The notes under the pieces were generated by a model. It ran no database searches. It was not told where the DNA came from and saw nothing but the letters and a program-made list of their open reading frames with translations. 34,889 nucleotides of DNA, from NCBI GenBank assembly GCA_007116035.1, contig SKJG01000098.1, positions 1 through 34,889 of the forward strand, written 5' to 3'. The first letter of the stretch is position 1, and every line of letters starts with the position of its first letter. Source of the DNA: Thioalkalivibrio sp. (GTDB taxonomy: Bacteria > Pseudomonadota > Gammaproteobacteria > Ectothiorhodospirales > Ectothiorhodospiraceae). A program made the translations under genes and the position numbers. Below, in pieces: positions 7,769 to 28,095 of the stretch.

Positions 7769-8264
7769 CGGCGGCGCGACGAATGGCAGGGGCCTATGCG
7801 CACAAACACCCCAGGGCCCTGCGCCACCCCTGACGATGAAAAGCCGCAAACTGGAGGTCGAATTCGCCCAAACGGCGTAAACGGACGGGTCTGGCACCCA
7901 CCCAAAGCCGCAAAGCAGCGCCGTCCCCGGCGCCCTGAAGGATCAAAATGAGCCACGGAAGAGCACGGACACACACGGAAGTCATCAAAAATAACCTGAT
8001 GATCACGAAAGCTCCGCAGAGGACCCTTCGCGCGCAAGGCAAGCTCCCACGGGTCCTTGCCCTTGTAGGAGGCTGCGTTGCAGACGAAGGTGTTGGCGGC
8101 TTCACTGCGATCCATGCGATGTTCCCGGCCTGCGGAGGATTCGTGATAATGAGGAAAAATAGGCGTTCACGATCCATTCCGTGTGCATCCGTGCTCTTCC
8201 GTGGCTGTATTTTCACATTAACGTAGCGAACGTCCTTCAAGTCCGCAAACCTGGAGAAGCGAAC
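7769..8264. repeat. 496-bp gene-free gap with long palindromic repeat
   Basis: I see no credible gene. Positions 7811-7840 hold, in reverse, the conserved module also present at 273-311 and 28081-28111. From about 7945 to 8220 there is a large imperfect palindrome whose arms are 7952-7980 and 8178-8206 (27 of 29 matching). The pairing resumes further in, around 8006-8023 against 8132-8150. The centre (8065-8090) has a GTAGGAG-type sequence related to the REP at 9277-9301. The same order of ends, the CCTGACGATGAA end and the GTATTTTCA end, recurs at 27988-28095. The only separate regulatory signal seen is the GGAG at 8253-8256 for the next gene. Confidence 0.75.
7952..8206. repeat. CACGGA-box long inverted repeat, copy 1
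   Basis: The left arm holds three CACGGA boxes at 7954, 7964 and 7974, exactly ten bases apart. The right arm holds their complements TCCGTG at 8178, 8188 and 8198, again exactly ten apart. Arms of 29 bases match at 27 positions and are separated by 197 bases. A second copy with a shorter centre is at 27997-28074. The spacing puts every box on the same face of the helix, which is unexpected for a simple RNA hairpin and suggests protein binding; that is inference. Confidence 0.75.
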
Positions 8265-9251
8265 GTGCCTTCCGCAATACCCCGACCCAACATCCAGTTT
8301 CACGACCTGCATCCCACGTTGGCCGATTTCCGGCACGAGGCCGTCGCCGGGCTGCGCCAAAGACCGCGCAGGATCCCGCCGAAGTTTTTCTACGACGAGC
8401 GCGGGTCGCAACTCTTCGATGCCATCACCGCGACGGCCGAGTACTATCCGACCCGCTCGGAGATGGAGATCCTCGAGACCCGCGCCGGCGAGATCGCGGA
8501 ATGCATCGGTACCGGCAGCCTGCTGGTGGAACCGGGCGGCGGCAGTTGCGCCAAGGTGCGCATCCTCCTCGGCGGACTGGAGCCGGTCGCCTACGTCCCG
8601 ATGGACATCTCCCGCGACCACCTGCACGCGGCGGCGCAGGAGTTGGCGGCGGAATTTCCCTGGCTGGAGGTGCACGCAGCGCATGCCGACTTCACCCAGC
8701 AGATGGAGCTGCCGCCGGGTGCGCCCGAGGGGCCGAGGGTGGCCTTCTTTCCCGGCTCCAGCATCGGAAACTTCGATCCCGACGCCGCGGTGGACTTCAT
8801 CGCCGCGGTGGCGGAGCTGGTCGGTCCCGGCGGTTTCCTGCTGATCGGCGTTGACCTGCGCAAGGACAAGGCCGTGCTCGACGCGGCCTACGACGACGCG
8901 GCGGGTGCGACCGCGGCGTTCAATCTGAATCTGCTCGAGCGGATGAACCGCGAACTGGAGGCGGACTTCGACCTGGACGCCTGGGCGCACCGCGCGGGCT
9001 TTAACGAGCCGCTGGGCCGGGTGGAGATGCACCTGTTGAGCCTGCGCGATCAGCAGGTGCGCGTCGCCGGCGAGGTCTTCGATTTCAGTGCGGGCGAAAC
9101 GATCCACACCGAGAATTCCTACAAGTACCGCATCGAAGAATTCCAGGACCTGGCCCGCCGCGCCGGCATGGATTCCGTGGGCGCCTGGACCGACCGCAAA
9201 GGCATGTTCAGCGTGCACCTGCTCCGCAACATGGCCGCCGGCGGGGCCTGA
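8265..9251 (+). CDS. egtD: EgtD-like L-histidine N-alpha-methyltransferase
   Basis: The family makes hercynine from histidine with three SAM molecules, the first step of ergothioneine synthesis. The 328-residue product has the family landmarks PPKFFYDERGSQLFDAIT (residues 38-55), EYYPTRSE (59-66), a SAM-binding LVEPGGGSCAKVRILL (87-102) in which Pro and Gly replace the usual residues around the Gly loop, FFPGSSIGNF (161-170), and a C-terminal IHTENSYKY. I chose the GTG at 8265 because a GGAG lies eight bases upstream and the repeat ends just before it. No egtB (sulfoxide synthase) is adjacent, so either it lies elsewhere or the gene serves another histidine-betaine use. It converges with uvrD. 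Confidence 0.85.
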   Translation: MPSAIPRPNIQFHDLHPTLADFRHEAVAGLRQRPRRIPPKFFYDERGSQLFDAITATAEYYPTRSEMEILETRAGEIAECIGTGSLLVEPGGGSCAKVRILLGGLEPVAYVPMDISRDHLHAAAQELAAEFPWLEVHAAHADFTQQMELPPGAPEGPRVAFFPGSSIGNFDPDAAVDFIAAVAELVGPGGFLLIGVDLRKDKAVLDAAYDDAAGATAAFNLNLLERMNRELEADFDLDAWAHRAGFNEPLGRVEMHLLSLRDQQVRVAGEVFDFSAGETIHTENSYKYRIEEFQDLARRAGMDSVGAWTDRKGMFSVHLLRNMAAGGA

Positions 9252-9276
9252 ACCGTCCGGCTGTGGCCCCCCGTCC

Positions 9277-9301
9277 GATCGCGGCCGGAGGCCGCTCCTA
9301 C
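9277..9301. repeat. REP-like GTAGGAGCGGCC palindrome between egtD and uvrD
   Basis: The stem GCGGCC (9281-9286) pairs with GGCCGC (9290-9295). Outer bases on the minus strand give the common GTAGGAGCGGCC...GGCCGCGAT form of proteobacterial REP sequences. It lies in the 67-base gap between convergent genes and may block read-through from both sides. Confidence 0.6.
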
Positions 9302-9318
9302 GGGGGGCTTGGCGGTGA

Positions 9319-11514
9319 TCAGGGCAGGGGCTCGAGGCGGGCGAAGCTGAGCACCAGCCACTTGGCGCCGCCGTTGGCGAAGTGGACCTGGACCCGGGCC
9401 GAGGCGCCGCCGCCCTCGTACTGGGTGATCACCCCCTCGCCGAATTTTGCGTGGCGCACGCGCGCACCGATGGCCAGGCCCGCCTCCGCCGCGGCAGCCT
9501 GCTGCGGGTTCAGGCCGGACCCGGTGCGATTCCCGGCGAAGCGGCCAGCGGGCCGGCTCCGGGCCTGCGGGCGCAGCGCCTCGACCATCGCCTCCGGCAG
9601 TTCGCGGACGAACCGCGAAGGCAGGTTGTAGGACTCGCGCCCGTACAGGCGCCGGCTCTCGGCGTAGGTCAGGTAGAGCTCACGCTCGGCCCGGGTCATG
9701 CCGACATAGGCCAGGCGGCGCTCCTCCTCCAGGCGGCCCGGCTCCTCCAGCGAGCGGGCGTTCGGAAACAGGCCCTCCTCCAGCCCGACCAGGAACACCA
9801 GCGGAAACTCCAGGCCCTTCGCCGAGTGCAGGGTCATCATCTGCACCGCGTCCTCGTGGGGATCGGCGGCCCCCTCGCCGGCCTCGAGCGCGGCGTGGGC
9901 CAGGAACTCGGTCAGGCCGCCCGCGCGCTGCTCCGCGTCCGGGGGCAGTTCCTGCTCGAAGGCGCGGGCCGCGCCGATCAGTTCGTCCAGGTTCTCCAGC
10001 CGCGCCTGACCGCGCTCCCCCTTCTCGTTGGCGTAGTGCTCGCGCAGGCCGGAGCGCTCGATGGTGCGCTCGACCTGGTCGGGCAGCGGCAGCGCGTCGG
10101 TCTCGTCACCCAGCTGGACCAACAGCTGCAGAAAGCCGGCCACCGCGTTGCGCGCGCGGCCCGCCAGCAGACCGTCCTGCACCGCCTGCACGGCAGCGCG
10201 GTACAGGCTGCTGTCGTCGCGCTGGGCCAGTTGGCGCAGTTCGTCGAGGGTCTTCTCGCCGATCCCGCGCGGGGGCTGGTTGACCACGCGCAGGAATGCG
10301 GCGTCGTCATCGCGGTTTCCGGCCAGGCGCAGGTAAGCCAGCGCGTCCCGGACCTCCTGGCGCTCGAAGAAACGCAGCCCGCCGTACACCCGGTAGGGCA
10401 TGCGCCGGGCGATGAAGGTCTCTTCCAGCACCCGCGACTGCGCGTTGGAGCGATACAGCACCGCGCATTCCCGGTACAGGCCGCCGCGCTCGACGTGACG
10501 GACGATGGTCTCGGCGACGAAACGGGCCTCGTCCTGTTCGTTGATGGCGGCAAACAGACGCACCGGCGCGCCGTCGTGTCCCTCGGTCCAGAGTTCCTTG
10601 CCCATGCGCCCCTGGTTGTGCCGGATCAGGGCATTGGCGGCGTTCAGGATGTTGGCGCTGGAGCGGTAGTTCTGCTCCAGGCGCAGGACCTGGGTACCCG
10701 GAAAATCCTTCTGAAAGTGCTGCAGGTTCTCGATCCGGGCGCCGCGCCAGCCGTAGATGGACTGATCGTCGTCCCCGACCGCGAACACCGGCGCCCCGGC
10801 ACCCGCGAGCAGGCGCAGCCAGGCGTACTGGATGTCGTTGGTATCCTGGAACTCGTCCACCAGCAGGTGCCGGAAGCGATCGCGGTAATGCGTGAGCAGT
10901 TCCTCGTTGTCGCGCAGCAGTTCCAGCGCACGCAGCAGCAGTTCGGCGAAGTCGACCACGCCGGCGCGGGTGCAGGCCTGCTCGTAGGCGGTGTAGACCC
11001 GCACCCACTGGCGCGAGATCGGGTCGCCACTGTCCGGGAGGCTCGCCGGGCGCCGGCCCTCGTCCTTGCGCGCATTGATGAACCACTGCGCCTGCCGCGG
11101 CGGCCAGCGCGCCTCGTCCATCTCCAGGGCGCGCAGCACCCGGCGGATCAGCCGCAGCTGGTCGTCGCTGTCGAGGATCTGGAAACCCTGCGGCAGCTTC
11201 GCCTCCTGCCAGTGCTGGCGCAGCAGGCGATGCGCGAGGCCGTGGAAGGTGCCAACCCAAAGCCCGCTGACCGGCTGACCGAGCAGCGTTTCGATGCGCC
11301 CGCGCATCTCGTTCGCCGCCTTGTTGGTGAAGGTCACCGCCAGCAGCCCCCAGGGCGCGATCCCCTCGACCTCGATCAGCCAGGCGATCCGGTGCACCAG
11401 CACCCGGGTTTTGCCGCTGCCGGCACCGGCCAGCACCAGCGTCGGCGCGGGCGGCGCCGCGACGGCTTCGCGCTGGGCGGGATTCAGGGGGTCGAGCAGG
11501 CGGGAGACGTCCAT
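9319..11514 (-). CDS. uvrD: DNA helicase II, UvrD/Rep superfamily
   Basis: This 3'-5' SF1 DNA helicase acts in nucleotide excision repair and mismatch repair. At 731 residues it matches UvrD (about 720 in E. coli). Motifs are Q-motif LNPAQREAV (10-18), Walker A GAGSGKT (30-36), Ia AVTFTNKAANEM, II VDEFQDTN, III GDDDQSIYGWRGA, IV VLYRSNAQSR, V MTLHSAKGLEF and VI VGMTRAERELY. The C-terminus (GARVRHAKFGEGVITQYEGGG...VHFANGGAKWLVLSFARL) is the Tudor-like fold that binds RNA polymerase. This, with the overall length, favours UvrD or PcrA over Rep. It is divergent from sucA across 230 bases, where an 8-bp inverted repeat (11555-11562, 11593-11600) is the only structure I see. Confidence 0.95.
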   Translation of the reverse strand: MDVSRLLDPLNPAQREAVAAPPAPTLVLAGAGSGKTRVLVHRIAWLIEVEGIAPWGLLAVTFTNKAANEMRGRIETLLGQPVSGLWVGTFHGLAHRLLRQHWQEAKLPQGFQILDSDDQLRLIRRVLRALEMDEARWPPRQAQWFINARKDEGRRPASLPDSGDPISRQWVRVYTAYEQACTRAGVVDFAELLLRALELLRDNEELLTHYRDRFRHLLVDEFQDTNDIQYAWLRLLAGAGAPVFAVGDDDQSIYGWRGARIENLQHFQKDFPGTQVLRLEQNYRSSANILNAANALIRHNQGRMGKELWTEGHDGAPVRLFAAINEQDEARFVAETIVRHVERGGLYRECAVLYRSNAQSRVLEETFIARRMPYRVYGGLRFFERQEVRDALAYLRLAGNRDDDAAFLRVVNQPPRGIGEKTLDELRQLAQRDDSSLYRAAVQAVQDGLLAGRARNAVAGFLQLLVQLGDETDALPLPDQVERTIERSGLREHYANEKGERGQARLENLDELIGAARAFEQELPPDAEQRAGGLTEFLAHAALEAGEGAADPHEDAVQMMTLHSAKGLEFPLVFLVGLEEGLFPNARSLEEPGRLEEERRLAYVGMTRAERELYLTYAESRRLYGRESYNLPSRFVRELPEAMVEALRPQARSRPAGRFAGNRTGSGLNPQQAAAAEAGLAIGARVRHAKFGEGVITQYEGGGASARVQVHFANGGAKWLVLSFARLEPLP

Positions 11515-11744
11515 CGGCGCATGGTAGCAAAAGGTCGCCAGCCCGGAGACACTGGCGCCTTCGTAGTGAATCCGCCCTTATACGCAGTGAGTGAAGGCGC
11601 ATTGGGGAACCACAGCGCCCGAGCACGGCCAACAGGTATGTAGATCAAGGGTGCTGCAACGCGGAATTCTGGCGCTGTTCGCGCTAAGCTGTCAGGTACA
11701 GAAACTGTCATTCCCGACACGACTCCGGAGAGTCAGGAAAGGTC

Positions 11745-14573
11745 ATGAACGAACCTCCCTCCAGGCAGCAGGCCCTCGCCATGCTGCGCCGCATGGATCT
11801 CCATCCCGACAGCATGGCGTTTGCCGAGGACCTGTTCGAGCGCTTCCTCGCCGATCCGGAATCGGTGCCGGCCACCTGGGCCGACTACTTCGGTGCGCTG
11901 GACCGTGAGCCCGGACCCACGCCCCGTCGCCGCGCCGCCGACCGGGACTGCATCGAGAACCGCGATCTTCAGCTCGAGCGGATGCAGGTCAGGGTGCTTC
12001 AGTACATCAACTCCCACCGCTTCCTCGGCCACTTCGCGGCGCGGCTGGATCCGCTGGGGCGCACGTCCCCGGACACGCCCGAGGAACTCAACCGGGGCTA
12101 CCACAATCTCGAAGACGTCGACCCCGAACAGGTCTTCGACCCCGGCTCGCTGCATGGCCCGAACCCGGCCCGCCTGGACGAGATCGAGTCCATCCTCAAG
12201 GACACGTACTGCGCCTGCATCGGTTCGGAGTTCATGCACCTGTCTTCCACCGCGGAGAAGCGCTGGCTGCAGCAGCGCCTCGAGTCGGTGCACGGTCACT
12301 TCGGGTTCGACCATGCCACGCGCATCGCCATTCTCGAGCGCCTGACCGCCGCCGAGGGCCTGGAGCGCTACCTGCACAACCGTTACGTCGGCCAGAAGCG
12401 CTTCTCGCTGGAGGGCGCGGAGAGCCTGATCCCGCTGCTGAACGCGCTGGTGCAGCGGGGCGGCGCGCGCGGGTTGAAGGAGATCGTGGTCGGCATGGCC
12501 CACCGCGGCCGACTGAACGTGCAGGTGAACATCTTCGGCAAGTCGCCGCGCGAGCTGGCCGACGAGTTCGAGGGCCGGCACAGCCGCAACCGGGGTAGTG
12601 GCGACGTCAAGTATCACCTCGGCCTTTCCGCCGACATCCAGACGCCCGGCGGGCGCCTGCACCTGGCGCTGGCCTTCAATCCCTCGCACCTGGAGATCGT
12701 CACGCCGGTGGTCCAGGGCTCGGTGCGCGCCCGTCAGGTGCGCCTGCGCGACCGGTCGGGGCAACGCGTCATGCCCGTGGTGATCCACGGCGACGCCGCC
12801 TTCGCAGGCCAGGGCGTGGTCATGGAGACCCTGAACATGTCGCAGACGCGGGGCTTCTCGACCAAGGGCACGATCCATATCGTGGTGAACAACCAGATCG
12901 GCTTCACCACCAGTACACTGAAGGACGCGCGTTCCAGCCATTACGCGACCGACGTCGCGAAGATCGTCAGCGCGCCCATCCTGCACGTGAACGGCGACGA
13001 TCCCGAGGCGGTGGTGTTCGTGACCCAGGTCGCACTGGACTATCGCATGCGTTTCGCGAAGGACGTCGTCATCGATCTGGTTTGCTACCGGCGCCAGGGC
13101 CACAACGAGGCCGACGAGCCGGCGGCGACCCAGCCGATGATGTACCGCACCATCCGCAGCCTGCCGACCACGCGCGAGCGCTACGCGGCCAGGCTGGTCG
13201 AGGGAGGGGTACTCGATGCGGGCACGGCCGCGCAGATGCAGGAGCGCTACCGGGATTCGCTCGAGGCCGGCGAGTCGGTGGTCCCGGGCCTGCTGTCGAC
13301 CGCGAGGGAAATCGACAGTCACCTGCCCACCGACTGGGTCTCTTTCGCCAACCAGACCTGGGATCAGGACGTCGCCACCGGCGCACCCGAGGAACAGCTG
13401 GCGTCGCTGCTGCAACGCCTGAACGCACTTCCCGAGGGATTCACGGTGCATCCCCGCGTACGCCGCATCCTCGACGCGCGGCAGGCGATGGCGGCAGGCG
13501 AACAGACCCTGGACTGGGGCACCGCCGAGACGCTGGCCTACGCGACCCTGCTGCAGGACGGGTACCGGATTCGCATGTCGGGCCAGGACTCCGGCCGCGG
13601 CACCTTCTTTCACCGCCACGCGGTGTTGCACGACCAGGAAACCGGTGAGGCCTTCGTTCCCCTGCGCCAGCTCGACCCGGAAAATCCGCGCTTCCTGGTG
13701 ATCGATTCCCTGCTGTCCGAGGAAGGGGTGCTGGCCTTCGAATACGGCTATGCCACTGCCTCGCCCAACGTGCTGGTCCTCTGGGAAGCCCAGTTCGGTG
13801 ACTTCGTGAACGGGGCCCAGGTCGTGATCGACCAGTTCATCAGTTCCGGCGAGCAGAAGTGGGACCGCCTCTGCGGGCTGGTGCTGCTGCTGCCGCACGG
13901 CTACGAGGGGCAGGGGCCGGAACACTCCTCCGCCCGCCCCGAGCGCTTCCTGCAGCTCTGCGCGCAGGAGAACATGCAGGTCTGCGTGCCGACGACGCCG
14001 GCGCAGATGTTCCACCTGCTGCGCCGGCAGCTGCTGCGACCCTATCGCAAGCCGCTGGTCGTGATGACGCCGAAGAGCCTGCTCCGGCACAAGCTCGCGG
14101 TCAGCGAGCTCGGCGAACTGGCGGAGGGGAGCTTCCAGCCCGTGATCGACGATATCGATTCCCCCGCGCCCGAAGCCGTGCGCCGCGTGCTGCTGACCGC
14201 GGGGCGCATCTACTACGACCTGCTGGCCGAGAAGCGCGAAGGTGAGCATGGCGACACTGCGATCGTGCGGCTGGAACAGTGCTATCCCTTCCCCGAGGCC
14301 TTGCTGACCCGGCTGCTGGGACGTTATGACCAGGCCACCGAGTTCGTCTGGGTCCAGGATGAACCCGAGAATCAGGGCTACCTGGACTTCGTCGAGCCGC
14401 GCCTCAACGCCTTGCTCCAGGTGCGCGGGCAGAGTCTGCACGCGGTGGCGCGCGACCCTGCGGCCGCCCCGGCGGTGGGTTATCCCGAGGTGCACAAGAG
14501 CGAACAGCAGGCACTGTTGCGACGCAGCTTCGGGCCCATCACCTCCCGGGACACGCCGCGGCCCACCGAATGA
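11745..14573 (+). CDS. sucA: 2-oxoglutarate dehydrogenase E1 component
   Basis: SucA is the thiamine-diphosphate-dependent E1 that decarboxylates 2-oxoglutarate in the TCA cycle. The 942 residues fit the family (about 930). It starts with the short E2-interacting segment (AFAEDLFERFLADPESVPATW). Family blocks follow: GMAHRGRLNV, the ThDP/Mg region with VVIHGDAAFAGQG and VVNNQIGFTTS, CYRRQGHNEADEP, SLLSEEGVLAFEYGYA, and LPHGYEGQGPEHSSAR with the active-site His. The start has AGGAAAGG (11735-11742) just before it. sucB follows after 30 bases. The E3 gene (lpd) is not next to them, nor anywhere else in this window. Confidence 0.97.
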   Translation: MNEPPSRQQALAMLRRMDLHPDSMAFAEDLFERFLADPESVPATWADYFGALDREPGPTPRRRAADRDCIENRDLQLERMQVRVLQYINSHRFLGHFAARLDPLGRTSPDTPEELNRGYHNLEDVDPEQVFDPGSLHGPNPARLDEIESILKDTYCACIGSEFMHLSSTAEKRWLQQRLESVHGHFGFDHATRIAILERLTAAEGLERYLHNRYVGQKRFSLEGAESLIPLLNALVQRGGARGLKEIVVGMAHRGRLNVQVNIFGKSPRELADEFEGRHSRNRGSGDVKYHLGLSADIQTPGGRLHLALAFNPSHLEIVTPVVQGSVRARQVRLRDRSGQRVMPVVIHGDAAFAGQGVVMETLNMSQTRGFSTKGTIHIVVNNQIGFTTSTLKDARSSHYATDVAKIVSAPILHVNGDDPEAVVFVTQVALDYRMRFAKDVVIDLVCYRRQGHNEADEPAATQPMMYRTIRSLPTTRERYAARLVEGGVLDAGTAAQMQERYRDSLEAGESVVPGLLSTAREIDSHLPTDWVSFANQTWDQDVATGAPEEQLASLLQRLNALPEGFTVHPRVRRILDARQAMAAGEQTLDWGTAETLAYATLLQDGYRIRMSGQDSGRGTFFHRHAVLHDQETGEAFVPLRQLDPENPRFLVIDSLLSEEGVLAFEYGYATASPNVLVLWEAQFGDFVNGAQVVIDQFISSGEQKWDRLCGLVLLLPHGYEGQGPEHSSARPERFLQLCAQENMQVCVPTTPAQMFHLLRRQLLRPYRKPLVVMTPKSLLRHKLAVSELGELAEGSFQPVIDDIDSPAPEAVRRVLLTAGRIYYDLLAEKREGEHGDTAIVRLEQCYPFPEALLTRLLGRYDQATEFVWVQDEPENQGYLDFVEPRLNALLQVRGQSLHAVARDPAAAPAVGYPEVHKSEQQALLRRSFGPITSRDTPRPTE

Positions 14574-14603
14574 TCGCCCACCGCTAGAGCCCAAGGAACC
14601 GTC

Positions 14604-15965
14604 ATGTCCCCAGAACGCACCACCCTTCGCGTCCCCGAGTTACCGGAATCAGTCGCCGACGCCACCGTCGTCGCCCTGCACAAGAAGGCCGGCGAACGGG
14701 TTCGGCGCGACGAGTTGCTGGTCGAACTGGAGACCGACAAGGTCGTGCTGGAGGTGCCGGCGCCGGCCGACGGCGTGCTGGATGAATTCACGGTCGAGGA
14801 AGGCACCGTGGTGGAGGCCGACGCCGTACTCGGCTACATCACGCCGGGAGCGGCCGGGAAAAAGGCCGACGCCGAGGGGGATGCGGAGCCCCGGGGCGAG
14901 GCGGCTGCACCCTCCGCAGCGGGCAGGTCCGCCACGGAAACCGCGCCAGCGGCCGACGAGGACACGGCGTCCACGGAGGCCAGGGACCGGGAAACGGGCG
15001 ACGCGCCACCCCCGAGCCCGGCAGTACGGCGCCTGCTCGCCGAACACGACGTCGACGCGAGCGAGATCAAGGGTACCGGCCAGAACGGCCGGCTGCTGAA
15101 GCAGGATGTGGAGCGCTTTGTCGCCGGGCGGGAAGAGATCCCCCAACCGCCACCCGCCGACACCGCGGCCACCGGGAGCAGCGAGGAAGCGAGGTCCGAA
15201 CCCGCGCCGGCAGCACCACCGGAACGCGAGCCTTCACGCGCCCCCGCGCCGACGCCGACCGGGTCCCGCAGCGAGGAGCGGGTGCCCATGTCGCGGCTGC
15301 GTACGCGCATCGCCGAGCGTCTGCTGCAGGCGAAGCAGACCACGGCAATGCTAACCACCTTCAACGAAGTCGACCTCACGGAGGTCATGGCGCTGCGCGC
15401 ACGACACCGGGACGCGTTCGAGAAGCGCCACGGCGTGCGCCTCGGATTCATGGGTTTCTTCGTGGCCGCCTGCGCGCTGGCCCTACGCCGGTTCCCGGTC
15501 GTCAACGCGGCGCTGGACGGCAACGAAATCGTGTACCACCATTACAGCGATATCGGTATCGCCGTGTCGTCGCCCCGCGGGCTGGTCGTTCCGGTGCTGC
15601 GCGACGCCGGCCAGATGTCCCTGGCCGCGATCGAGCAGCAGATCCGCGAATTCGCCGAGCGCGCCCGCACCGGCAAGCTCGAGTTGGATGAACTGCGCGG
15701 CGGCACCTTCACCATCACCAACGGCGGGGTGTTCGGCTCGCTGCTTTCCACGCCGATCCTGAACCCCCCGCAGAGCGCGATCCTCGGGATGCACAAGGTG
15801 CAGGACCGGCCCGTGGCGTTGAACGGAGACGTGGTCGTCCGGCCGATGATGTACCTGGCGCTGTCCTACGATCACCGCCTGATCGACGGTGCGGATGCGG
15901 TGCGCTTCCTGGTGGCCATCAAGGAATCGCTGGAGGATCCCGGCCGCATGCTGCTCGACCTTTGA
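14604..15965 (+). CDS. sucB: Dihydrolipoyllysine succinyltransferase, E2 of 2-oxoglutarate dehydrogenase
   Basis: SucB forms the core of the complex and passes the succinyl group to CoA. Its 453 residues divide into an N-terminal lipoyl domain with the modified lysine in ETDKVVLEV (Lys46), an acidic Ala/Pro/Glu-rich linker (about 82-135), a peripheral E1/E3-binding domain ([20 protein letters not shown], about 137-172), a second Pro/Ala linker (about 178-218) and the acyltransferase domain. The latter ends with the catalytic motif [12 protein letters not shown] (His424, Asp428). AAGGAA precedes the ATG. The two linkers are long for this family (453 residues against about 405 in E. coli). Confidence 0.96.
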
Positions 15966-16007
15966 GCCCCGCTGGAGTTCATCGACGACAGCCCGAGCGC
16001 AGCCGTT

Positions 16008-16110
16008 GGACGGTGGGAGCCTGCTCCCGATTTTCCGGTGCCGGAACCTGGCCGCACCCCCCAGAGCGGCGGCAGTCCGCCGCACTCCACGGGCGCTACG
16101 CGCAGCGGGG
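16008..16110. repeat. Double-hairpin intergenic repeat, copy B
   Basis: Hairpin one is GGGAGC (16015-16020) with GCTCCC (16023-16028). Hairpin two is GCGGCGG (16066-16072) with CCGCCGC (16077-16083). Between them lies the family spacer with GATTTT and CCGGTGCCGGAACC. After the second hairpin comes the shared GCACTCCA...GGCGCTACGCGC tail. It sits right after sucB, so it may define or stabilise the 3' end of the sucAB transcript. No T-run is present. Confidence 0.75.
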
Positions 16111-19734: not shown

Positions 19735-19751
19735 ACAGCGCGCGGAGCCGT

Positions 19752-20822: not shown

Positions 20823-20825
20823 TCG

Positions 20826-21221
20826 TCAGCGCGTAGGTCGTACAAACGCGAAGATGTCGGTGATGCCGAGCGCATCCGTGATCACGAACACCAGGAATAC
20901 GATCAATACGACCTCCAGGGCACCCGCACCTGCCGGCACCTGGTCCAGGCGAGCGTTCAGATCGGCTATCTGGGTCGGAGTCAGCCGATCCACCCGCACT
21001 TGGGCGTCGGCCGGATCCACGCCCATGCGCGCAAGCGCCGACCGGAATTCCTCGGATGCGAGACGCTGCACCAGCGCCGCGCGGTCGGCATCGGCGCCGG
21101 CCGCCGTGATCAGGGTGTTCGTGTCGAGCATCCCGGCCATCACGGGCGTCGCCGGGAGCAGCGCGAGCAACAAGGTGCAAAGAAAGATCAGCGTACGAGC
21201 CGACCGCCGTTTGGTCTTCAT
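20826..21221 (-). CDS. PA2779-family membrane protein (partner of PA2778 peptidase)
   Basis: The 131-residue protein has a signal peptide (basic start, hydrophobic 10-27, PVMAG) and a soluble segment of helices. That segment holds two alternating motifs, RAALVQRLASEEFRSALARM and RVDRLTPTQIADLNARLDQV. A C-terminal membrane segment follows (ALEVVLIVFLVFVITDALG), with a conserved tail ITDIFAFVRP. This is the family called PA2779, found next to PA2778-type peptidases. The ATG at 21221 follows AGGAGG, whereas the frame extends further upstream without support. Function is unknown. The fixed pairing suggests it is a membrane partner or substrate of the peptidase. Confidence 0.85.
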   Translation of the reverse strand: MKTKRRSARTLIFLCTLLLALLPATPVMAGMLDTNTLITAAGADADRAALVQRLASEEFRSALARMGVDPADAQVRVDRLTPTQIADLNARLDQVPAGAGALEVVLIVFLVFVITDALGITDIFAFVRPTR

Positions 21222-21469
21222 GTTCTGCCTCCTGGTGAAGGTTTCGTCGTCATGGATCCCATCGGGGCAGGGCACAACAGGCCCGATGCTGCCCCGGCAA
21301 GAGAGCCTCAATACTACACCGTTGCCCTGGAAAGCCCCCCAGATCGGTCATTCGCCCGTCGCGGCTCGTGGGCCAAGCCGAAGGTTCGAGAGCCCTTTGC
21401 CGGTAGCCATGCCGCACGGCTTTGCGACCGGGCGCACGACCCTGGGTGCCGTCTCGCCTGTTCGGCGCG
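21222..21469. other. Gap between the PA2779-type gene and the phosphofructokinase
   Basis: No gene is supported in these 248 bases. On the side of the PA2779-type start there are two overlapping, mutually exclusive inverted repeats, CATCGGG (21260-21266) with CCCGATG (21282-21288) and GGGGCAG (21264-21270) with CTGCCCC (21289-21295). These could act as an operator or leader structure. I see nothing clear near the 3' end of the phosphofructokinase gene. Confidence 0.35.
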
Positions 21470-22735
21470 TTACGCCTCGTCGACCCGGAACTCGGGGCAA
21501 CGCTTGGGACGCAAGACGCCGCGAATGCGGGGGTAGCACGGCAGGCCGTTCAGGAACGGTGGGTAATCCTCTCCCTCGATCAGGGGCCGCAGGTAGTCGC
21601 GGCAGGCCTGGGTGATCCCGTAGCCGTCCGGCGAGATGAATTCCAGCGGCATGCCGCGCTCGACGTTGGCCACGCGCTCGAGCGGCACCCGGTCGATCAC
21701 CCAGCGGTAGGGCACGCTGGCCTCGCGCCGGATCACCGGCATGAAGCTGTGATGCCCGGCAACCACGCCCTCGACCGCGGCCTTGCCCACCGCGTACGCC
21801 TGCTCCACGTCCACCTTCGAAGCCAGGTGGCGCGCGGCGCGCTGGATGTAGTCCACGACCGACCAGTGCAGCTTGTGTCCGGTCTCCTTCTTGATCATCT
21901 CGGCCAGGCGTGGCACCGCACCACCCAGCTGGGTGTAGGCGTAGACGTCGTGGCTCTGGGCCACCGCGTAGAGCGATCCGTCCTTCTTCTTCAGCCCCTC
22001 GGAGACGACCACCACGCAGTAGCCGTGACGCTCGATCGTCCGCGCCAGGCTGGTCAGGAAATCGGCCTCGTCGAAGGGCACCTCTGCGAACAGGATCAGC
22101 ATCGGCGGCTGTCCGTCGTATTCCTGGGCCAGCGCGGCGGCCGCGGCGAGCCAGCCCGCGTGCCGGCCCATGACCTCCAGGATGAAGACCTTGGTGGAAC
22201 TGGTGTGCATGGACTCGACGTCCAGGCTGGCCTCGCGCACCACGGTCGCGATGAACTTGGCCGCGGAACCGAAGCCGGGGCTGGTGTCGGTGCAGTCGAG
22301 ATCGTTGTCGATGGTCTTGGGCACGCCGACCGCGGTGATCGGGTAGCCCATCAGGTCACCGATGCGCGCAACCTTCAGCGCCGTGTCCATCGAACCGCCG
22401 CCGCCGTTGTAGAAAAAGGTACCGATGTCGTGCGCCTGGAACACCTCCACCAGGCGTTCGTACTGCCTGCGGTCCCGATCCGGGTCGCCCAAATCGAACC
22501 GGCACGAGCCGAAGGCACCGCCCGGGGTGTGGCGCAAGGCCGCCAGGGTGAAGGGATCCTCCTGGTCGAGATCGATCAGCTCTTCGTTGAGCACGCCGAG
22601 GATGCCATCGCGGGCTGCGAAGCAGGTGCCGAAGTGGGCGGGATGCGCCCGCACGGCCTCGATCACGCCCCAGGCACTGGCGTTGATCACGGCCGTGACC
22701 CCGCCCGACTGGGCATACAGCGCATTCTTGGGCAT
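21470..22735 (-). CDS. pfp: 6-phosphofructokinase, PPi-type clade
   Basis: The enzyme phosphorylates fructose-6-phosphate. Its 421 residues, the N-terminal AQSGGVTAVINAS in place of the ATP-enzyme loop, and VPKTIDNDLDCTD (Lys140) place it with PPi-dependent enzymes of methanotrophs and sulfur oxidisers. MGRHAGW and the C-terminal PxxxGxxRG region also fit. However, the loop that in this clade reads GGGDS or GGDDS is GGGGS here (111-115). The Asp thought to bar ATP is thus Gly. Phosphate-donor choice is therefore open. It is divergent from fbp, which catalyses the reverse net reaction. In related organisms such enzymes also act on sedoheptulose phosphates. Confidence 0.88.
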   Translation of the reverse strand: MPKNALYAQSGGVTAVINASAWGVIEAVRAHPAHFGTCFAARDGILGVLNEELIDLDQEDPFTLAALRHTPGGAFGSCRFDLGDPDRDRRQYERLVEVFQAHDIGTFFYNGGGGSMDTALKVARIGDLMGYPITAVGVPKTIDNDLDCTDTSPGFGSAAKFIATVVREASLDVESMHTSSTKVFILEVMGRHAGWLAAAAALAQEYDGQPPMLILFAEVPFDEADFLTSLARTIERHGYCVVVVSEGLKKKDGSLYAVAQSHDVYAYTQLGGAVPRLAEMIKKETGHKLHWSVVDYIQRAARHLASKVDVEQAYAVGKAAVEGVVAGHHSFMPVIRREASVPYRWVIDRVPLERVANVERGMPLEFISPDGYGITQACRDYLRPLIEGEDYPPFLNGLPCYPRIRGVLRPKRCPEFRVDEA

Positions 22736-23080
22736 CCAAATCCTCCCGATCGATGAGCAGGCGTCCTGAACGGGTACCTATGCAGAAAGAGTACCAGCGG
22801 GACGATCGCACAGCTTTTGCTAATATGTCCGGGTTTTCCATCCGAGCTTCTGGCTCGGTGCATTCCCGGACCTCCGGGCGCAGTTGCTCGGCACGCCGCA
22901 TGGCGCAAGCATTGGGACGCGATTTTGTGGCCCCGCGCAGCGGCATGCAAACCCAGGGGGTGCGACGGCACCCCACGAGGCGTCCGACGACCGCGTTCGA
23001 ACCGGCCCGAACCTGCACCATGATCGTGCACGGAATGCACCGCCCTGGCCCGCCACCCACCCGCTTTCAGGAACCAGACC
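22736..23080. promoter_or_regulatory. Divergent pfp/fbp control region with structured palindrome
   Basis: No gene is supported in these 345 bases. An extended -10-like TGC-TAATAT (22818-22826, plus strand) is followed at once by nested inverted repeats: GTCCGGG (22827-22833) with CCCGGAC (22865-22871), and inside it CCGAGC (22842-22847) with GCTCGG (22853-22858). Read towards fbp this gives a leader of roughly 240 bases, structured at its 5' end. The same palindrome could instead be an operator shared by both genes. No adjacent regulator gene is present. Confidence 0.4.
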
Positions 23081-24094
23081 ATGCACATCGGCACCACACT
23101 GACCAACTACATCATCGAGACCCAGCGCCAGATCCAGGGCGCCACCGGGGAATTCACCGGCCTGCTGAACGACATCGCCGTCGCCTGCAAGAAGATTTCC
23201 GACCTGGTGAACAAGGGCGACCTGATCGGGGTGCTCGGCTCGGCGGGCTCCGAGAACATCCAGGGTGAGACCCAGAAGAAGCTCGACGTGATCACCAACG
23301 AGGTCTTCCTCGAGGCGCTGGCCCACAACGGCCACGTCGCGGGACTGGCCTCCGAGGAAATGGACGAGATCTACCAGCTCCCCGCGGACGCCCCGCGCGG
23401 GCACTACCTGGTGCTGTTCGACCCCCTGGACGGCTCCTCGAATATCGACGTCAACGTCTCGGTCGGAACGATCTTCTCCATCATCAAGGCGCCCGAGGGC
23501 GTGACCCACCCCACCACCGAGGACTTCCTGAAGCCCGGCGCCGAACAGTGCGCCGCCGGCTACTGCCTGTACGGGCCATCGACCATGATGGTCTTCGCCA
23601 CCCGCGACCGCGGCGTGCAGATGTTCACGCTGGACAAGGACTTCGGGGAATTCCTGCTGACCCACGAGGACGTGAAGATTCCCGAGGACACGGCCGAATT
23701 CGCGATCAACGCCTCCAACAGCCGCTTCTGGGAGGCCCCGATCAAGCGCTACGTGGACGAGTGCCTCGCGGGCAAGGACGGTCCGCGCGGCAAGGACTTC
23801 AACATGCGCTGGATCGCGTCCATGGTCGCCGAAGTGCATCGCATCCTGACCCGCGGCGGCGTGTTCATGTACCCAGTGGACGAAAAACTCAAGACCAAGG
23901 GGCAGGGCGGCAAGCTGCGCCTGATGTACGAGGCCAACCCGATGGGCCTGATCATCGAACAGGCGGGCGGCGCCTGCACCACGGGCCGCGAGCGCATCCT
24001 GAGCCTGCAGCCCGAGGGCGTGCATCAGCGCGTGCCGGTGATCCTGGGCTCGAAGAACGAGGTGGAGCGCATCACCAGCTACCACGCCGTCTGA
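23081..24094 (+). CDS. fbp: Fructose-1,6-bisphosphatase class I
   Basis: Fbp hydrolyses fructose-1,6-bisphosphate in gluconeogenesis and, in autotrophs, the Calvin cycle. The 337-residue product has the metal-binding sites SEE (91-93) and DPLDGSS (114-120), the NAS...RFWEAP segment, [14 protein letters not shown], and the substrate region GGVFMYP followed by [20 protein letters not shown]. The ATG at 23081 begins the family-typical [13 protein letters not shown]. Ribosome binding is weak (CAGGAACC about ten bases before). It is divergent from the phosphofructokinase gene, so control of the two opposing steps may be joint. A GC-rich hairpin (24106-24117 with 24122-24132, no T-run) follows the gene. 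Confidence 0.95.
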
Positions 24095-24105
24095 GCGGCA
24101 CGGTG

Positions 24106-24132
24106 CGCCCTCCCGGGCACACCCGGGGGGCG
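24106..24132. terminator. GC-rich hairpin between fbp and HDOD gene
   Basis: CGCCCTCCCGGG (24106-24117) pairs with CCCGGGGGGCG (24122-24132) around a CACA loop with one bulged T. It lies between convergent genes. The lack of a T-run makes intrinsic termination uncertain, but the strength and position fit a bidirectional 3'-end structure. Confidence 0.45.
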
Positions 24133-24178
24133 TGCGACCGGCCGGGCCGGCGCCGCCCGTCGCGGTGCGGTGCGGGTA

Positions 24179-25600
24179 TCAGGAAGCCAGTGCGTCGGCG
24201 AGGGATTTCGGCAGGGCCTGCGGGCGGGCCATCAGCCTTGGCTTGACCTTCTGGTGGAACAGATCCTGTTCGCCGATGCCGGTCAGCCCCAATGCGGCCA
24301 GATACTCGTCGGAGAAGGGCCCGTTCCTGCTGCCGTCCCCGGTATGAATCCGGTCGCGGAAACGATTGGCCAGGTGCAGCAACGCCACGTTCTCGCGCAC
24401 GTCGCCGGGCACATGCTCCGGTAGCGCGAACTCCGGATAATGCTGGAACTGGATGCTCCGGCACAGACTCTCCGGCAGGTTCCAGGCACGCAGAAGCTCG
24501 GCACCGAGCCCCGCGGAGTCCATGGTGGCCAGGAGCCCCTCGAGCCGCGGATTCTGCGATTTCAGCAGCTCCAGCACGACGCTGCCGATCTCGCGCAGCA
24601 GCCCAATCGTGGAGACCTCGGCCGGTCGCCCGACGCCCACGGCCTGTGACGTCGCGAAGGCGAGCTGCGAGGTCTCCAGCGACCGCTGGTAGATCTCGAG
24701 GAACCGCGGCGTCTCCGGGAGGCTCTTGCGCATGCTTTCCGACAGGATCAACTGGTGAACGGCGTCGAACCCCAACAGGGTCACCGCATGGTTCACATTG
24801 TCGATCTTGTGCTGAAGGCTGTAGAGGGCGGAATTGACGGCCTTCAGCAGGGTGCTGGTCAGCGAGGGATCGGACTTGACCAGGTCGACCACCTCGGCGT
24901 GGGTGGTGCGCTCGTCGAAGAGCTTGGCAAGCAGGGTAGCCGTCGATACCGGTAACCGTGGCACCTTCCGGATGACCTCGCCCACGGCCTCGCTCCGGGA
25001 AAACCCGGTGTCCGCTGCCAGCCGGGAACGGTAAAGCGCTTCCACCAGCGCCTGATTCCGCGCACTCAGATCCCGGTCGCGTGCTGCGAGCCGCTGGATC
25101 AGGGCCTGCTGCCGCAGCTGCCTCTGGCTGAGCAGTCGAAGCTTGATGCCTTCACCCAGGCCATCCACCGTTTCGCGGCTGAGCGACAGGATCGACGCGG
25201 GACCCCGCGCGATCGTCGAATAGAACACCTCCTCCGCTGCATCCGAATCGAGACCCCCGATCGAGTCACCCGGCCCCATCTCGAGCAACGTCGCGCCGGC
25301 CCCGTCCTGCAGGCCGACCTCGCCCTTGATCAGCAGGTGGATCGCCGGGTCCCGGTCACCGGCACGCAACACGAAGTCGCCCGCGTCGAGCACCCGGATC
25401 GGCGCCAGGCTGCAGAGCGCCGCAAGATCGGTATCGCGCAAACCCGCGACCGCGCCCGAACCGACCATTTGACCGAGAGGCGGCACGGGCACATGTGCGG
25501 AACGACGACTGACCGCCGCGGGATCGGCGACCGCCGCAGGGCGCGCCTGCTCCCCGGCGCCCGCGACCGCCGCGACCCTCTTTCTCCAGAAACCGAACAC
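24179..25600 (-). CDS. cNMP-binding domain plus HDOD signalling protein
   Basis: The 473-residue protein joins two signalling domains. Residues about 50-150 form a cyclic-nucleotide-binding fold (RVLDAGDFVLRAGDRDPAIH, then GEVGLQ and a GPGDSIGG turn). The canonical phosphate-binding RxA is not evident, so ligand binding is doubtful. A helical linker (about 155-205) leads to an HDOD domain (about 210-400) with PRLPVSTATLLAKL and the VNSALYSLQHKIDNVNHAVTLLGF segment. HDOD domains resemble HD hydrolases without the metal residues and usually act as scaffolds. The GTG at 25600 has GAGGGGG upstream, while the frame runs on without support. There is no membrane segment. It is divergent from deaD. 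No cognate kinase or response regulator is nearby. Confidence 0.8.
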   Translation of the reverse strand: MFGFWRKRVAAVAGAGEQARPAAVADPAAVSRRSAHVPVPPLGQMVGSGAVAGLRDTDLAALCSLAPIRVLDAGDFVLRAGDRDPAIHLLIKGEVGLQDGAGATLLEMGPGDSIGGLDSDAAEEVFYSTIARGPASILSLSRETVDGLGEGIKLRLLSQRQLRQQALIQRLAARDRDLSARNQALVEALYRSRLAADTGFSRSEAVGEVIRKVPRLPVSTATLLAKLFDERTTHAEVVDLVKSDPSLTSTLLKAVNSALYSLQHKIDNVNHAVTLLGFDAVHQLILSESMRKSLPETPRFLEIYQRSLETSQLAFATSQAVGVGRPAEVSTIGLLREIGSVVLELLKSQNPRLEGLLATMDSAGLGAELLRAWNLPESLCRSIQFQHYPEFALPEHVPGDVRENVALLHLANRFRDRIHTGDGSRNGPFSDEYLAALGLTGIGEQDLFHQKVKPRLMARPQALPKSLADALAS

Positions 25601-25848
25601 GGAATACCCCCTCGATCCGGAATTCACCCCGGGGCCGGTCGCTGGCAGCGTCCTCGCCCGCTCCGGCCCGCCCCTACCTACAGCCCAGAGTCTATATCGT
25701 CCGAAAGGAGAATGCCTACCACGAAGCCGGTTGGCCAAGGCATGGCGCCGCAGAGCCCCCTGCCCGCACCGGTCGTGTATACTATCTGGTTTGGCGTTAC
25801 CCGCCCCATCCCGTCGGAATCCGTTTCGGCCCTCCCGAGTACCCTGTT
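25601..25848 (+). promoter_or_regulatory. Upstream region of deaD with possible promoter
   Basis: TATACT at 25778-25783 (followed by AT) is a good -10 candidate, and no clear -35 box is 17 bases before it. Transcription from there would give a leader of about 60 bases. No Shine-Dalgarno sequence is visible before the deaD ATG. The bases just upstream are pyrimidine-rich (CCCTGTT), so translation may depend on leader structure or another factor, which suits a cold-shock type helicase; the link is inference. Confidence 0.35.
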
Positions 25849-27816
25849 ATGTCGCACTCCCCCTCATTCTCCGAGCTCGGCTTGTCCGAGCCGTTGGCGC
25901 TGACCGCAGAGCGCCTTGGTTTCACCCAGCCGACCCCGGTTCAGGCGGCCTGCATCCCTGCGCTCCTCGGCGGCCGTGACGTGCTCGGCGAGGCCCAGAC
26001 CGGCACCGGCAAGACCGGCGCCTTCGGCCTGCCGCTGCTCGATCGCATCGACGCCGGAAACCGCGCGGTGCAGGCGCTGGTCCTGGCGCCGACGCGCGAA
26101 CTCGCGAACCAGGTGGCCGCAGCGCTCGCCAGCTTTGCCGAGGCGATGCGCGGCATCGACATCCTGCCCGTCTACGGCGGCCAGCCCATGGGCGTGCAGC
26201 TGCGCCGGCTGCACGCCGGCCCGCAGATCGTGGTCGGCACACCGGGCCGGATCGTCGATCACATGAAGCGCGGCACGCTGAAGCTCGACGCATTGCGGCT
26301 CGTGGTCCTGGACGAGGCCGACGAGATGCTGCGCATGGGCTTCATCGACGACATCGAGTGGATCCTGGAGCAGACCCCGAAGGAGCGGCAGACCGCGCTG
26401 TTCTCGGCCACCATGCCGGCGCCGATCCGGCGCATCGCGCACCGCCACCTCCGCGATCCCGAAGAAATCCGCATCGGTGCCGGCAACGAGGCCGGAACCG
26501 ACATCGACCAGGTCTACTGCCTGGTCGATCAGCGCCACAAGCTGGAGGCGCTCGGCCGGATGCTGGAGGTCGAGACCGACCGCGACGCGGCGCTGGTGTT
26601 CGCGCGTACCAAAGCCGCGACCCTGGAGATCGCCGATGCGCTGGCCTCGATGGGCCACGCGGTTTCGGCCCTGAACGGCGACATGGAACAGAAGGAGCGG
26701 GAACGCGTGGTCGCGGAACTGCGCAACGGCCGGCTCGACGTGATCGTCGCCACCGACGTGGCCGCCCGCGGCATCGACGTGCCGCGCATCAGCCATGTCT
26801 TCAACTTCGACGCCCCGGGTGACGCGGAGGCCTACGTGCACCGCATCGGCCGTACCGGCCGCGCCGGACGCAAGGGCCGCGCGATCCTGTTCCTGGAGCC
26901 GCGCAAGCGCCGCATCCTGCACGAAATCGAGCGCCTGACGCGCAAGCCGGTGCGTGCGCTGCCCGTGCCCGACCTGAAGGCCGTCACCGCCAGCCGCGAA
27001 GCACGCTTCGCGGGCAAGGTCGAGGCGATGCTGGCGTCCGGGCACTCCGGGCAGCACAACGAGCTGGTCGACGCACTGCTCGCGCGCTGCAACGCCTCGG
27101 AACGCGACCTGGCGAGCGCCCTGGTGGCACTGGCCACCGAGATGACGCCGCTGCTGGCGCCGGGGAACGCGGCCGCGGACCCCCTCACGCACACCAGCCA
27201 CGCGCGCGATACGACCCGCAAGCCGCCCCGGACTACCGAGGGCAGGGAACGCGGCGGCCGCGAGGACACCCGTCCTGCCGCCGCGCGCGTCCCGCGCGCG
27301 CCACGCGGCCCCGACGGCGAAATGGTGCGCTACTACATGCCGGTCGGCCGGCAGGACGGCATCGGCGCTCGCGAGATCGTCGGGGCACTGACGCACGAGG
27401 GCGGATTGTCAGGGGGTGACATCGGCCGGATCGGGCTGATGGATCACCACAGCCACGTGGATCTCCCGGCAGCGCTGAACGAGGCCGCGATCCGACGCCT
27501 GGCCCGCATCCACGTCGCCCAGCGCAAGCTGGAACTGACGCTGGAAACCCCGGAGATCGCGGACAGGCGTCCGGAGACCGAGAAGACCGTGCCACGCGTG
27601 CGGATGGCGCCGACGCAGGACGACAGGCCTGCGCGCCCGGGCAAACCCGCCCGCTTCGGCAAGCCGGCGCACGCCAAGGGCGGCAAGGCTCCGCAGGATC
27701 GAAAGCGGCACGGCTTCGGCGGCCCAACCGCCAGCCGCGGGCGCGGCCCCGGACCGGGCAAGCCCTTCTCGGCGCGCGACGCCGGCACCCTCGCCATCCG
27801 CCGCAAGCCGGTCTGA
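25849..27816 (+). CDS. deaD: DEAD-box RNA helicase, DeaD/CsdA type
   Basis: This ATP-dependent RNA helicase is for ribosome assembly and mRNA turnover at low temperature. The 655 residues contain the Q motif (FTQPTPVQ), motif I AQTGTGKT (49-56), PTREL (81-85), TPGR, DEAD (155-158), SAT (186-188), ATDVAARGID and HRIGRTGR (331-338). A dimerisation-like segment (about 380-435) follows. The DbpA/DeaD RNA-recognition fold is at about 492-565 (MVRYYMPVGRQDGIG...VHVAQRK-like). A basic, disordered Arg/Lys/Gly/Pro tail ends the protein. The linker at 440-490 is also Arg-rich. It stands alone, divergent from the HDOD gene. Confidence 0.95.
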   Translation: MSHSPSFSELGLSEPLALTAERLGFTQPTPVQAACIPALLGGRDVLGEAQTGTGKTGAFGLPLLDRIDAGNRAVQALVLAPTRELANQVAAALASFAEAMRGIDILPVYGGQPMGVQLRRLHAGPQIVVGTPGRIVDHMKRGTLKLDALRLVVLDEADEMLRMGFIDDIEWILEQTPKERQTALFSATMPAPIRRIAHRHLRDPEEIRIGAGNEAGTDIDQVYCLVDQRHKLEALGRMLEVETDRDAALVFARTKAATLEIADALASMGHAVSALNGDMEQKERERVVAELRNGRLDVIVATDVAARGIDVPRISHVFNFDAPGDAEAYVHRIGRTGRAGRKGRAILFLEPRKRRILHEIERLTRKPVRALPVPDLKAVTASREARFAGKVEAMLASGHSGQHNELVDALLARCNASERDLASALVALATEMTPLLAPGNAAADPLTHTSHARDTTRKPPRTTEGRERGGREDTRPAAARVPRAPRGPDGEMVRYYMPVGRQDGIGAREIVGALTHEGGLSGGDIGRIGLMDHHSHVDLPAALNEAAIRRLARIHVAQRKLELTLETPEIADRRPETEKTVPRVRMAPTQDDRPARPGKPARFGKPAHAKGGKAPQDRKRHGFGGPTASRGRGPGPGKPFSARDAGTLAIRRKPV

Positions 27817-27854
27817 GCCTGGTGGTCCGTGGGCACCATGCCCCGGGGCCGGGT

Positions 27855-27956
27855 GGCCACGGGGCTGTCCGCCAGCGGGACGCCGTGAATACATCCCTGT
27901 AGGCTTGACGGCCGCATCCCTGCGGCCGACACCCGCCGGCGGACAGCCCCGTCGCC
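27855..27956. repeat. Inverted repeat enclosing a perfect hairpin
   Basis: The arms 27855-27880 and 27931-27956 match at 23 of 26 positions and contain ACGGGGCTGTCCGCC. At the centre GGCCGCA (27910-27916) pairs with TGCGGCC (27921-27927) around TCCC. The central part, GTAGGCTTGACGGC followed by CATCC and a GCC-rich return, resembles a widespread proteobacterial intergenic repeat. It follows deaD by about 40 bases. Confidence 0.65.
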
Positions 27957-27987
27957 CCCTCCCAAGTTCTATAGGTCGGGTGAGCTT

Positions 27988-28095
27988 GAAAATACGGCCA
28001 CGGAAGGACACGGACGCCACGGAAAGCAAAGGGCATTCAAACCCTCTTCCGTGTGTTTCCGTGTTTTTCGTGGCGCACCTGTTCATCGTCAGGGA
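27988..28095. repeat. CACGGA-box long inverted repeat, copy 2
   Basis: CACGGA boxes occur at 27999, 28009 and 28018. Their complements occur at 28048 (TCCGTG), 28058 (TCCGTG) and 28067 (TTCGTG). The spacing is nine or ten bases and the centre is only about 22 bases, against 197 in copy 1. Both copies begin with TGAAAATAC before the first box and end with the complement of CCCTGACGATGAA, so they are the same element with different interiors. Confidence 0.7.

Follow-up and report, generated by a model that had tools for sequence, protein, structure and literature searches.

CACGGA box palindromes in a Thioalkalivibrio contig: probable gene-less relatives of an element enclosing GxxExxY genes, carried in a dispersed repeat frame

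The DNA analysed here (the window) is a stretch of 34,889 nucleotides of Thioalkalivibrio sp. (contig SKJG01000098.1 of assembly GCA_007116035.1, positions 1 to 34,889 of the forward strand) and contains two palindromes, copy 1 and copy 2, whose arms are built of short CACGGA boxes. Our reading, to which we give a probability of about 0.6, has two layers: the palindromes lie in a dispersed repeat frame, designated the M element, and they are gene-less members of a widespread element in which a GxxExxY gene stands between a box arm and an inverted box arm. As dispersed copies resembling miniature inverted-repeat transposable elements (MITEs) the window repeats are ordinary, and they are unusual in holding gene-less palindromes of a kind that encloses a gene elsewhere. 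The occurrence of boxed arms around a nuclease-like gene, one that has had little study, in many bacteria suggests a small, widespread mobile element. A view of both copies as one 20-kb inverted repeat was dropped, the two being among some 50 dispersed copies.

As listed in Table 1, the boxes lie at the positions given by the original prediction, a note made from the letters alone. Every step between boxes is 10 bp in copy 1; in copy 2 the steps are 10 and 9 bp in the left arm and 10 bp in the right, again as claimed, and the third right box is degenerate (TTCGTG, 28067–28072). Taken singly, the word CACGGA occurred in the window about as often as expected by chance (29 matches against 27.4). 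In the genome-wide search for phased triplets that had been proposed, the triple-box pattern was strongly enriched, matching the genome holding the window (the source genome, 3.03 Mb) at 25 places, with none for the pattern read backwards; steps of 11 or 12 bp, permitted in this search of the source genome, were not seen. Adjacent CACGGA pairs on the same strand and up to 40 bp apart, counted at 18 loci chosen for carrying triplets, were spaced by 9 bp in 25 and by 10 bp in 31 of 62 cases. Random spacing, named in the original prediction as the opposing observation, was limited to the six remaining pairs, which were scattered: with 56 of 62 pairs at 9 or 10 bp, the spacing is truly constrained. 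The phrase “exactly 10 bp” describes copy 1 and not the repeat at large, since 9 and 10 bp are about equally common in the source genome and 8, 9 and 10 bp occur in the wider family. Boxes in the window are followed by A or C, those of the GxxExxY cassettes described below mostly by G or T.

Beyond the window, 20 of 25 genus genomes and 1 of 15 genomes from other genera had the triplet pattern, which makes 21 of 40 with the source genome counted; its distribution was patchy, with 0 to 71 matches per species of the genus. In a sample of 398 genomes of the phylum, 17 had the pattern, the source genome again counted; in four of these all triplets had longer gaps, and one held a long tandem array. 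Across phyla, triplets were found in at least 120 stretches from Verrucomicrobia, Planctomycetes, Acidobacteria, Nitrospiria, Bacteroidetes, Spirochaetia, Gammaproteobacteria and others, the names being taken from record titles of named genomes and some matches looking like coding repeats. An open reading frame (ORF) search of the triplet loci with one enclosed gene gave at least seven GxxExxY genes, five between or adjoining boxes and two more than 1.5 kb away.

GxxExxY genes (PF13366) were present in 40 of 49 palindrome-holding genomes (from 50 listed loci hand-picked for their palindrome look), in 63 of the 398 genomes of the phylum sample and in 3 of 14 control genomes. At 16 of 30 GxxExxY loci (each 30-locus set here and below comprising the best-scoring locus, one per genome) strict phased boxes lay within 250 bp of the gene, and 34 such matches fell in the 25.1 kb near these genes versus 7 in the 65.9 kb far from them. 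An arm score, with a cut of at least 18, was calculated by aligning the 170-bp upstream flank, free of any motif, to the reverse-complemented 170-bp downstream flank. The cut was reached by 25 of 38 GxxExxY loci and, among phylum-sample loci drawn regardless of boxes, by 19 of 29 (24 of 29 at a score of at least 14; 29 of the 30 loci were testable, L404 being dropped for its short flank). Arms taken from different loci reached 18 in 1.8% (38-locus set) and 6.3% (phylum-sample set) of pairings, random window pairs from palindrome contigs in 8 of 1500, and Y1-transposase genes in none of 20 (from 28 Y1 loci of the genus). Most of the GxxExxY genes examined thus stood between inverted arms.

The boxes in these arms had the form CRCnnAK, 8–10 bp apart, and the outer box mostly began with ACC or GCC. 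Spacings of 8, 9 and 10 bp were counted 34, 88 and 44 times in 53 arm pairs (53 of 68 loci past the score cut, with a pattern in which C1, C3 and A6 are preset and the bases at positions 2, 5 and 7 restricted), and the strict 10-bp helical phasing of the original prediction was abandoned with these counts. The spacing pattern was alike in both arms of 38 of 44 elements. Arms are alike within one element, and therefore most elements own a box word that is kept in both arms.

Within the genus, a PF13366 gene was present in 8 of 25 genomes. GxxExxY genes lay between CACGGATGGA arms at two loci (L351 and L352) and between CACAGAG arms at a third (L348), and partial or degenerate arms surrounded the gene at L353 to L355. 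In one intergenic gap, compared among 11 species of the genus with strong flank matches, the GxxExxY gene was present in six and absent in five. Where this gap was filled, the six species (L348, L349, L350, L353, L354 and L355) had differing box words or no arms. In Thiohalobacter thiocyanaticus (the genome of L173) an arm of about 30 bp, near identical, was common to gene-less palindromes and a cassette. The window repeats have the inverted CACGGA arms, spaced by 9–10 bp, of such cassettes; the source genome has no PF13366 gene between arms, and the repeats are therefore called gene-less relatives rather than cassettes. Elsewhere, at L432 and L340, the gene seemingly lies between two complete palindromes, not two half arms. 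No description of box arms around GxxExxY genes was found in the available parts of the open-licence literature, where absence weighs little.

The protein of locus L348 is a member of TIGR04256, and the Pfam name for PF13366 is PDDEXK_3. The structural model of the L348 protein had a mean predicted local distance difference test (pLDDT) score of 95.5. The best PDB match of the model was SSO0001 (Z 9.8), and no other row reached 8; nucleases, among them restriction enzymes and Cas4-like ones, followed at Z of at most 7.5, and Hjc resolvases at Z 5.8–6.8, a range for which the tool warns of a merely common arrangement. Among 22 proteins, E27 and K79 were invariant and D67 and E77 nearly so. By this fold and the D...ExK motif, GxxExxY is predicted to be a small putative nuclease of the PD-(D/E)XK fold. 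In the mechanism we propose, the box arms would pair as a long hairpin or cruciform in DNA, or as a stem in RNA; the GxxExxY protein would recognise and cut box-bearing DNA, the cassette being copied into new sites; and gene-less palindromes, of presumed common descent with the cassettes, would spread through trans action of the protein or by hitch-hiking in elements such as M. The original prediction had offered an end recognised by a mobile element, which comes near this reading. The anatomy has good support; mobility, cutting and descent are the presumed parts.

Both window copies lie inside M elements, with the layout TTAG/CGTGAAA...TTTCATCnTnnGGGGTG-hairpin-ATGAnnGTTAG. A hand-made 142-nt consensus matched 50 places in the source genome; about half of the matches span most of the unit and many cover the right end only, and six right-end-only matches that were inspected had a GTAG-type repetitive extragenic palindromic (REP) doublet in place of boxes. 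Scanning of 51 stretches of this genome gave 50 right ends. Among the 41 that scored well, the interior was a box palindrome in 16, a REP doublet in 17 and neither in 8; window copy 2 was among nine “weak” rows, and at least four more right-end matches, one at window 272, lay outside the scanned stretches. Six of the other interiors, inspected by eye, comprised four with a further REP-like doublet, one with a GTAGGGCGG doublet and one with nothing recognised. The same ends thus enclose box, REP or other interiors, and M is therefore a conserved frame in which palindromes are swapped. The idea of conserved arms with a replaceable interior was sound at the level of M, which has conserved ends and counts the box palindrome among its replaceable interiors.

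Two species of the genus were compared at orthologous stretches, L101 and L102: an M unit stands in L101 exactly where L102 reads TTAG, and TTAG flanks this unit on both sides; tandem M units meet at GTTAGCGTGAAA. In 17 distinct right-end hairpins (loci L001–L142), the third pair was G-C in 8, C-G in 6 and neither in 3, the search pattern itself fixing the outer two pairs. The ends of M have only a short CGTGAAA/TTTCATC complementarity. MITEs and nonautonomous IS200/IS605-type elements are short, dispersed and nonautonomous, the latter with a fixed short target and a hairpin near the right end. M shares with them its dispersal in many copies (41 well-scored right ends), presence or absence at one site (L101 filled, L102 unfilled), the fixed TTAG target and a right-end hairpin followed by a presumed cut site; it differs in that its ends are not plain terminal inverted repeats, its interior is exchangeable and no mobilising transposase was found. 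A Y1 transposase as the owner of M was dropped, because none of 32 Y1 loci had an M right end or a gene with M ends, and the M consensus gave matches of 14 and 10 bases only at the four Y1 loci of the source genome. In its sequence M resembles a single-strand-type transposase insertion beside a fixed short target and probably behaves like this or like a MITE; an enzyme cutting at TTAG sites would move it. An insert in an M left end at L108 (1136–2723, compared with L107) looked by eye like an IS110-family element and had GTTAGCGTG-like sequence on either flank; IS110 elements may target the left ends of M.

S23 (four-helix-bundle) genes, for which we know of no nuclease motif, were present in 40 of the same 49 palindrome-holding genomes. 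They were dropped as a negative control: 20 of 30 loci (L356–L385) had an arm score of at least 18, the inverted arms being made of another unit, which was 7 bp long in 20 of the 23 with a score of at least 14; the strict CRCRRA pattern had no match near any of the 30 genes. Unit length tracked the protein family in these samples (7 bp for S23, 8–10 bp for GxxExxY), which favours a common gene-in-palindrome class, yet leaves room for a role at the RNA level. We consider possible, at somewhat less than an even chance, a cross-phylum class of minimal elements with one small gene between inverted arrays of family-specific units, in which the protein would read its own arm register, the arms would co-evolve per element and gene-less palindromes would be nonautonomous. 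That this class, taken jointly for the 8–10-bp units of GxxExxY and the 7-bp units of S23/four-helix-bundle genes, is previously undescribed is held just as tentatively.

The S23 intervening sequence (IVS) of 23S rRNA, e.g. in Coxiella, has been called a selfish element, with a role of its ORF in mobility discussed; heptamer repeats upstream of the ORF, complementary ends and RNase III excision are described for it in the part of the paper available (PMC4990558). So far as that part goes, IVS and GxxExxY cassettes are alike in being a small insert with complementary ends, short tandem units by the ORF and one small ORF (PMC4990558), and the cassettes differ in their 8–10-bp boxes and unrelated PD-(D/E)XK-type protein. 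No link of the cassettes to rRNA was seen, no search being aimed at one. The window repeats do not look like S23 IVS: their units are of 9–10 bp, not 7, and the sole Rfam match in the window was a thiamine pyrophosphate (TPP) riboswitch.

Several observations weigh against a GxxExxY element with gene-less members. Judged by the strict pattern, just 57 of the 169 triplet matches listed had an inverted partner arm at a distance of up to 2.5 kb, and by this test the others were single arrays, coding repeats or degenerate. All 30 phylum-sample GxxExxY loci came from one taxonomic family, 10 of the 29 testable ones scored below 18, and the genes at L349 and L350 had no arms. Triplets occurred in 20 of 25 genus genomes, some as plain tandem arrays, versus the gene in eight; PF13366 had no match in the source genome, window included, so any trans action there would be past or foreign. 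The association in the phylum sample was modest (PF13366 in 6 of 13 triplet genomes versus 57 of 385 others, p 0.009, kinship uncorrected, in a hand-compiled table of 9–11-bp triplets; 7 of 17 versus 56 of 381, p 0.009, on adding the four longer-gap genomes). The likeness of cassette and palindrome arms within one genome was weak (permutation p 0.016) and came mostly from Thiohalobacter thiocyanaticus. No compensatory change was seen in the box stems of the source genome (0 two-sided, 3 one-sided and 18 broken out of 241 cells, 11 copies being used from 19 that were extracted), and stem covariation was dropped as a line of evidence. No target-site duplication was established for the GxxExxY cassette, and no Foldseek match of the protein model reached E 0.001. 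As S23 genes have the same layout, the arms need not be nuclease substrates.

An alternative that we hold to be unlikely, and still the foremost of those considered, places the arms at the RNA level, as in the S23 IVS: the stem would close an inserted RNA, for RNase III excision or for tolerance in transcripts, the protein would be secondary, and the DNA would move by ordinary recombination. In its favour, palindromes lie in frame within an ORF of two species, which we take to be aminotransferase-like from its sequence, and arm pairing is kept in gene-bearing elements though the box words vary. Copy 2 gave an RNA fold z of −3.35 (0 of 200 shuffles as good) and a DNA fold z of −2.55 (3 of 200), and S23 genes, known from RNase III-cut rRNA inserts with heptamers, have the same layout with 7-bp units (PMC4990558, available part). 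Many palindromes, however, are carried within M, an element that may go untranscribed, and a unit length set by the protein family is not needed by RNA pairing alone. The original prediction had favoured a protein-bound site “rather than an RNA structure”; the arms of one gene-bearing element match each other far better than arms of different elements, and since a hairpin would require such matching, an RNA structure keeps a share of the probability.

In the same loop of the aminotransferase-like ORF the two species have differing box palindromes (L101 7054–7248, L102 12940–13092), and both frames are open. Rickettsia palindromic elements are palindromes carried in the same way, in frame inside ORFs; we know of no tandem boxes or linked gene in them. 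The P6b stem of the Nostoc tRNA-Leu intron resembles the box palindromes in being a stem of short repeat units, seven-base motifs, one class of which can be replaced by another, and differs in that its 7-bp units lie in a group I intron, with no enclosed gene mentioned in the part of the paper available (PMC4476775).

A slightly less probable alternative is that the box palindromes are a REP-like repeat, moved by Y1 transposases or in M, and that their resemblance to GxxExxY arms arose by convergence, the motif being simple. The palindromes of the source genome often lie in M, other copies of which have GTAG-type REP interiors, Y1 genes are present in 22 of 25 genus genomes, and the source genome has no GxxExxY gene; yet the 32 Y1 loci do not carry M right ends, box palindromes have no GTAG or CGTC tag (the window palindrome has the outer end GCCACGG, and sibling M interiors do carry GTAG), and the gene-less and gene-bearing arms of Thiohalobacter agree over about 30 bp. 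At 28 Y1 loci, searched with the strict pattern only, no box palindrome was matched. Thioalkalivibrio is among the described hosts of REP, bacterial interspersed mosaic element (BIME) and REPIN repeats with RAYT (Y1) transposases in the parts of the papers available (PMC2817692, PMC3116915, PMC3733652). By these descriptions, box palindromes are like REP and REPIN in being small, dispersed and often inverted doublets, and GTAG-type doublets fill the same M frame; they are unlike them in having several short boxes per arm and, by the 32 Y1 loci, no Y1 gene linked to M right ends.

A chromosomal protein-binding site for a nucleoid or segregation factor, suggested originally from a spacing constrained to about one helical turn, is very improbable and was dropped, given a distribution of 0 to 71 matches per species within one genus, a wider-family spacing of 8–10 rather than 10–10.5 bp and, in two complete genus genomes, site positions that were not significantly clustered (Rayleigh p ~0.09 for 32 clusters in G010 and ~0.46 for 19 clusters in G012, the positions being hand-picked, one per cluster: 37 from 71 matches and 23 from 35).

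The two window copies are in opposite orientation and share a left end (8211–8222, − in copy 1; 27980–27991, + in copy 2) and a right end (7812–7842, −; 28080–28116, +). Shared outer ends had been claimed, within boundaries that were too narrow, for the ends sit outside the boxes. Judged by sequence comparison, copy 2 (27980–28118) is a plain box-type M element; a truncated M adjoins it in tandem and has a different interior, in which repeat D1 recurs at 28210–28248. Copy 1, running from 8222 to 7812, is by the same comparison a patchwork of a box-type left part, a MITE insertion, a second box arm and half of a REP-type M: within it, 7929–7950 matched the box-type right end of L024 and 7815–7935 was 84–85% identical to the latter half of a REP-type M element. 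The centres of the copies do differ, as had been noted, and that of copy 1 appeared unrelated because a 160-bp MITE was inserted there and a REP-type piece recombined beyond the second arm. The ends of this MITE matched the ends of an L108 insert (3477–3758) that is missing from the orthologous L107. Its inverted ends, of about 25 bp, begin CCTgATgATCACGAA, and it is accompanied by an 8-bp near-duplication.

Table 1. Features of copy 1, copy 2 and the adjoining truncated unit in the window
Feature	Position	Strand	Basis
M element left end, copy 1, GTTAATGTGAAAATACAG	8205–8222	−	Aligns with left ends of source-genome copies
Box arm beside left end, copy 1; three CACGGA boxes 10 bp apart (8178, 8188, 8198)	8177–8206	−	93% match to L024 1482–1527
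Inserted 160-bp MITE, copy 1 centre; imperfect terminal inverted repeats of ~25 bp (7995–8019, 8130–8154)	7995–8154		Sequence
8-bp near-duplication flanking the MITE: AAAAATAA, partner AAAAATAG at 8155–8162; 7 of 8 alike	7987–7994		Sequence
Second box arm, copy 1; boxes 7954, 7964, 7974	7951–7980	+	93% complementary to 8177–8206
Right part of copy 1, recombined join	7815–7950	−	Comparison with L024, L055, L056
M element right end, copy 1, TTTTCATCGTCAGGGGTGGCGCAGGGCC	7812–7842	−	Sequence matches
M element left end, copy 2, GTGAGCTTGAAAATACGG	27980–27997	+	Sequence match
Left box arm, copy 2	27998–28024	+	Boxes 27999, 28009, 28018
Right box arm, copy 2	28045–28074	−	Boxes 28048, 28058; degenerate third 28067
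M element right end, copy 2: small hairpin TGGCGCTGGGCCA, terminal GTTGA	28080–28118	+	“Weak” score, 2 mismatches
Truncated further M unit, adjoining copy 2 in tandem; left end GTTGATGTGAAA, other REP-type interior	28114–28248	+	Interior type compared by eye with L135, L138

Box palindromes, GxxExxY genes and S23 genes are widespread in bacterial genomes, and we know of no role for any of them. If arms and gene form one element, a common family of “hypothetical” proteins would gain a testable function, the S23 intervening sequences would fall within a broader class, and a source would be at hand for many unexplained intergenic repeats.

Further REP-type repeats (families D1 and D3) lie in the window at 229–289, 16031–16108, 28114–28248 and 31336–31413, the first of them adjoining another M right end (272–289). 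The TPP riboswitch (RF00059) lies at 33351–33446 on the reverse strand.

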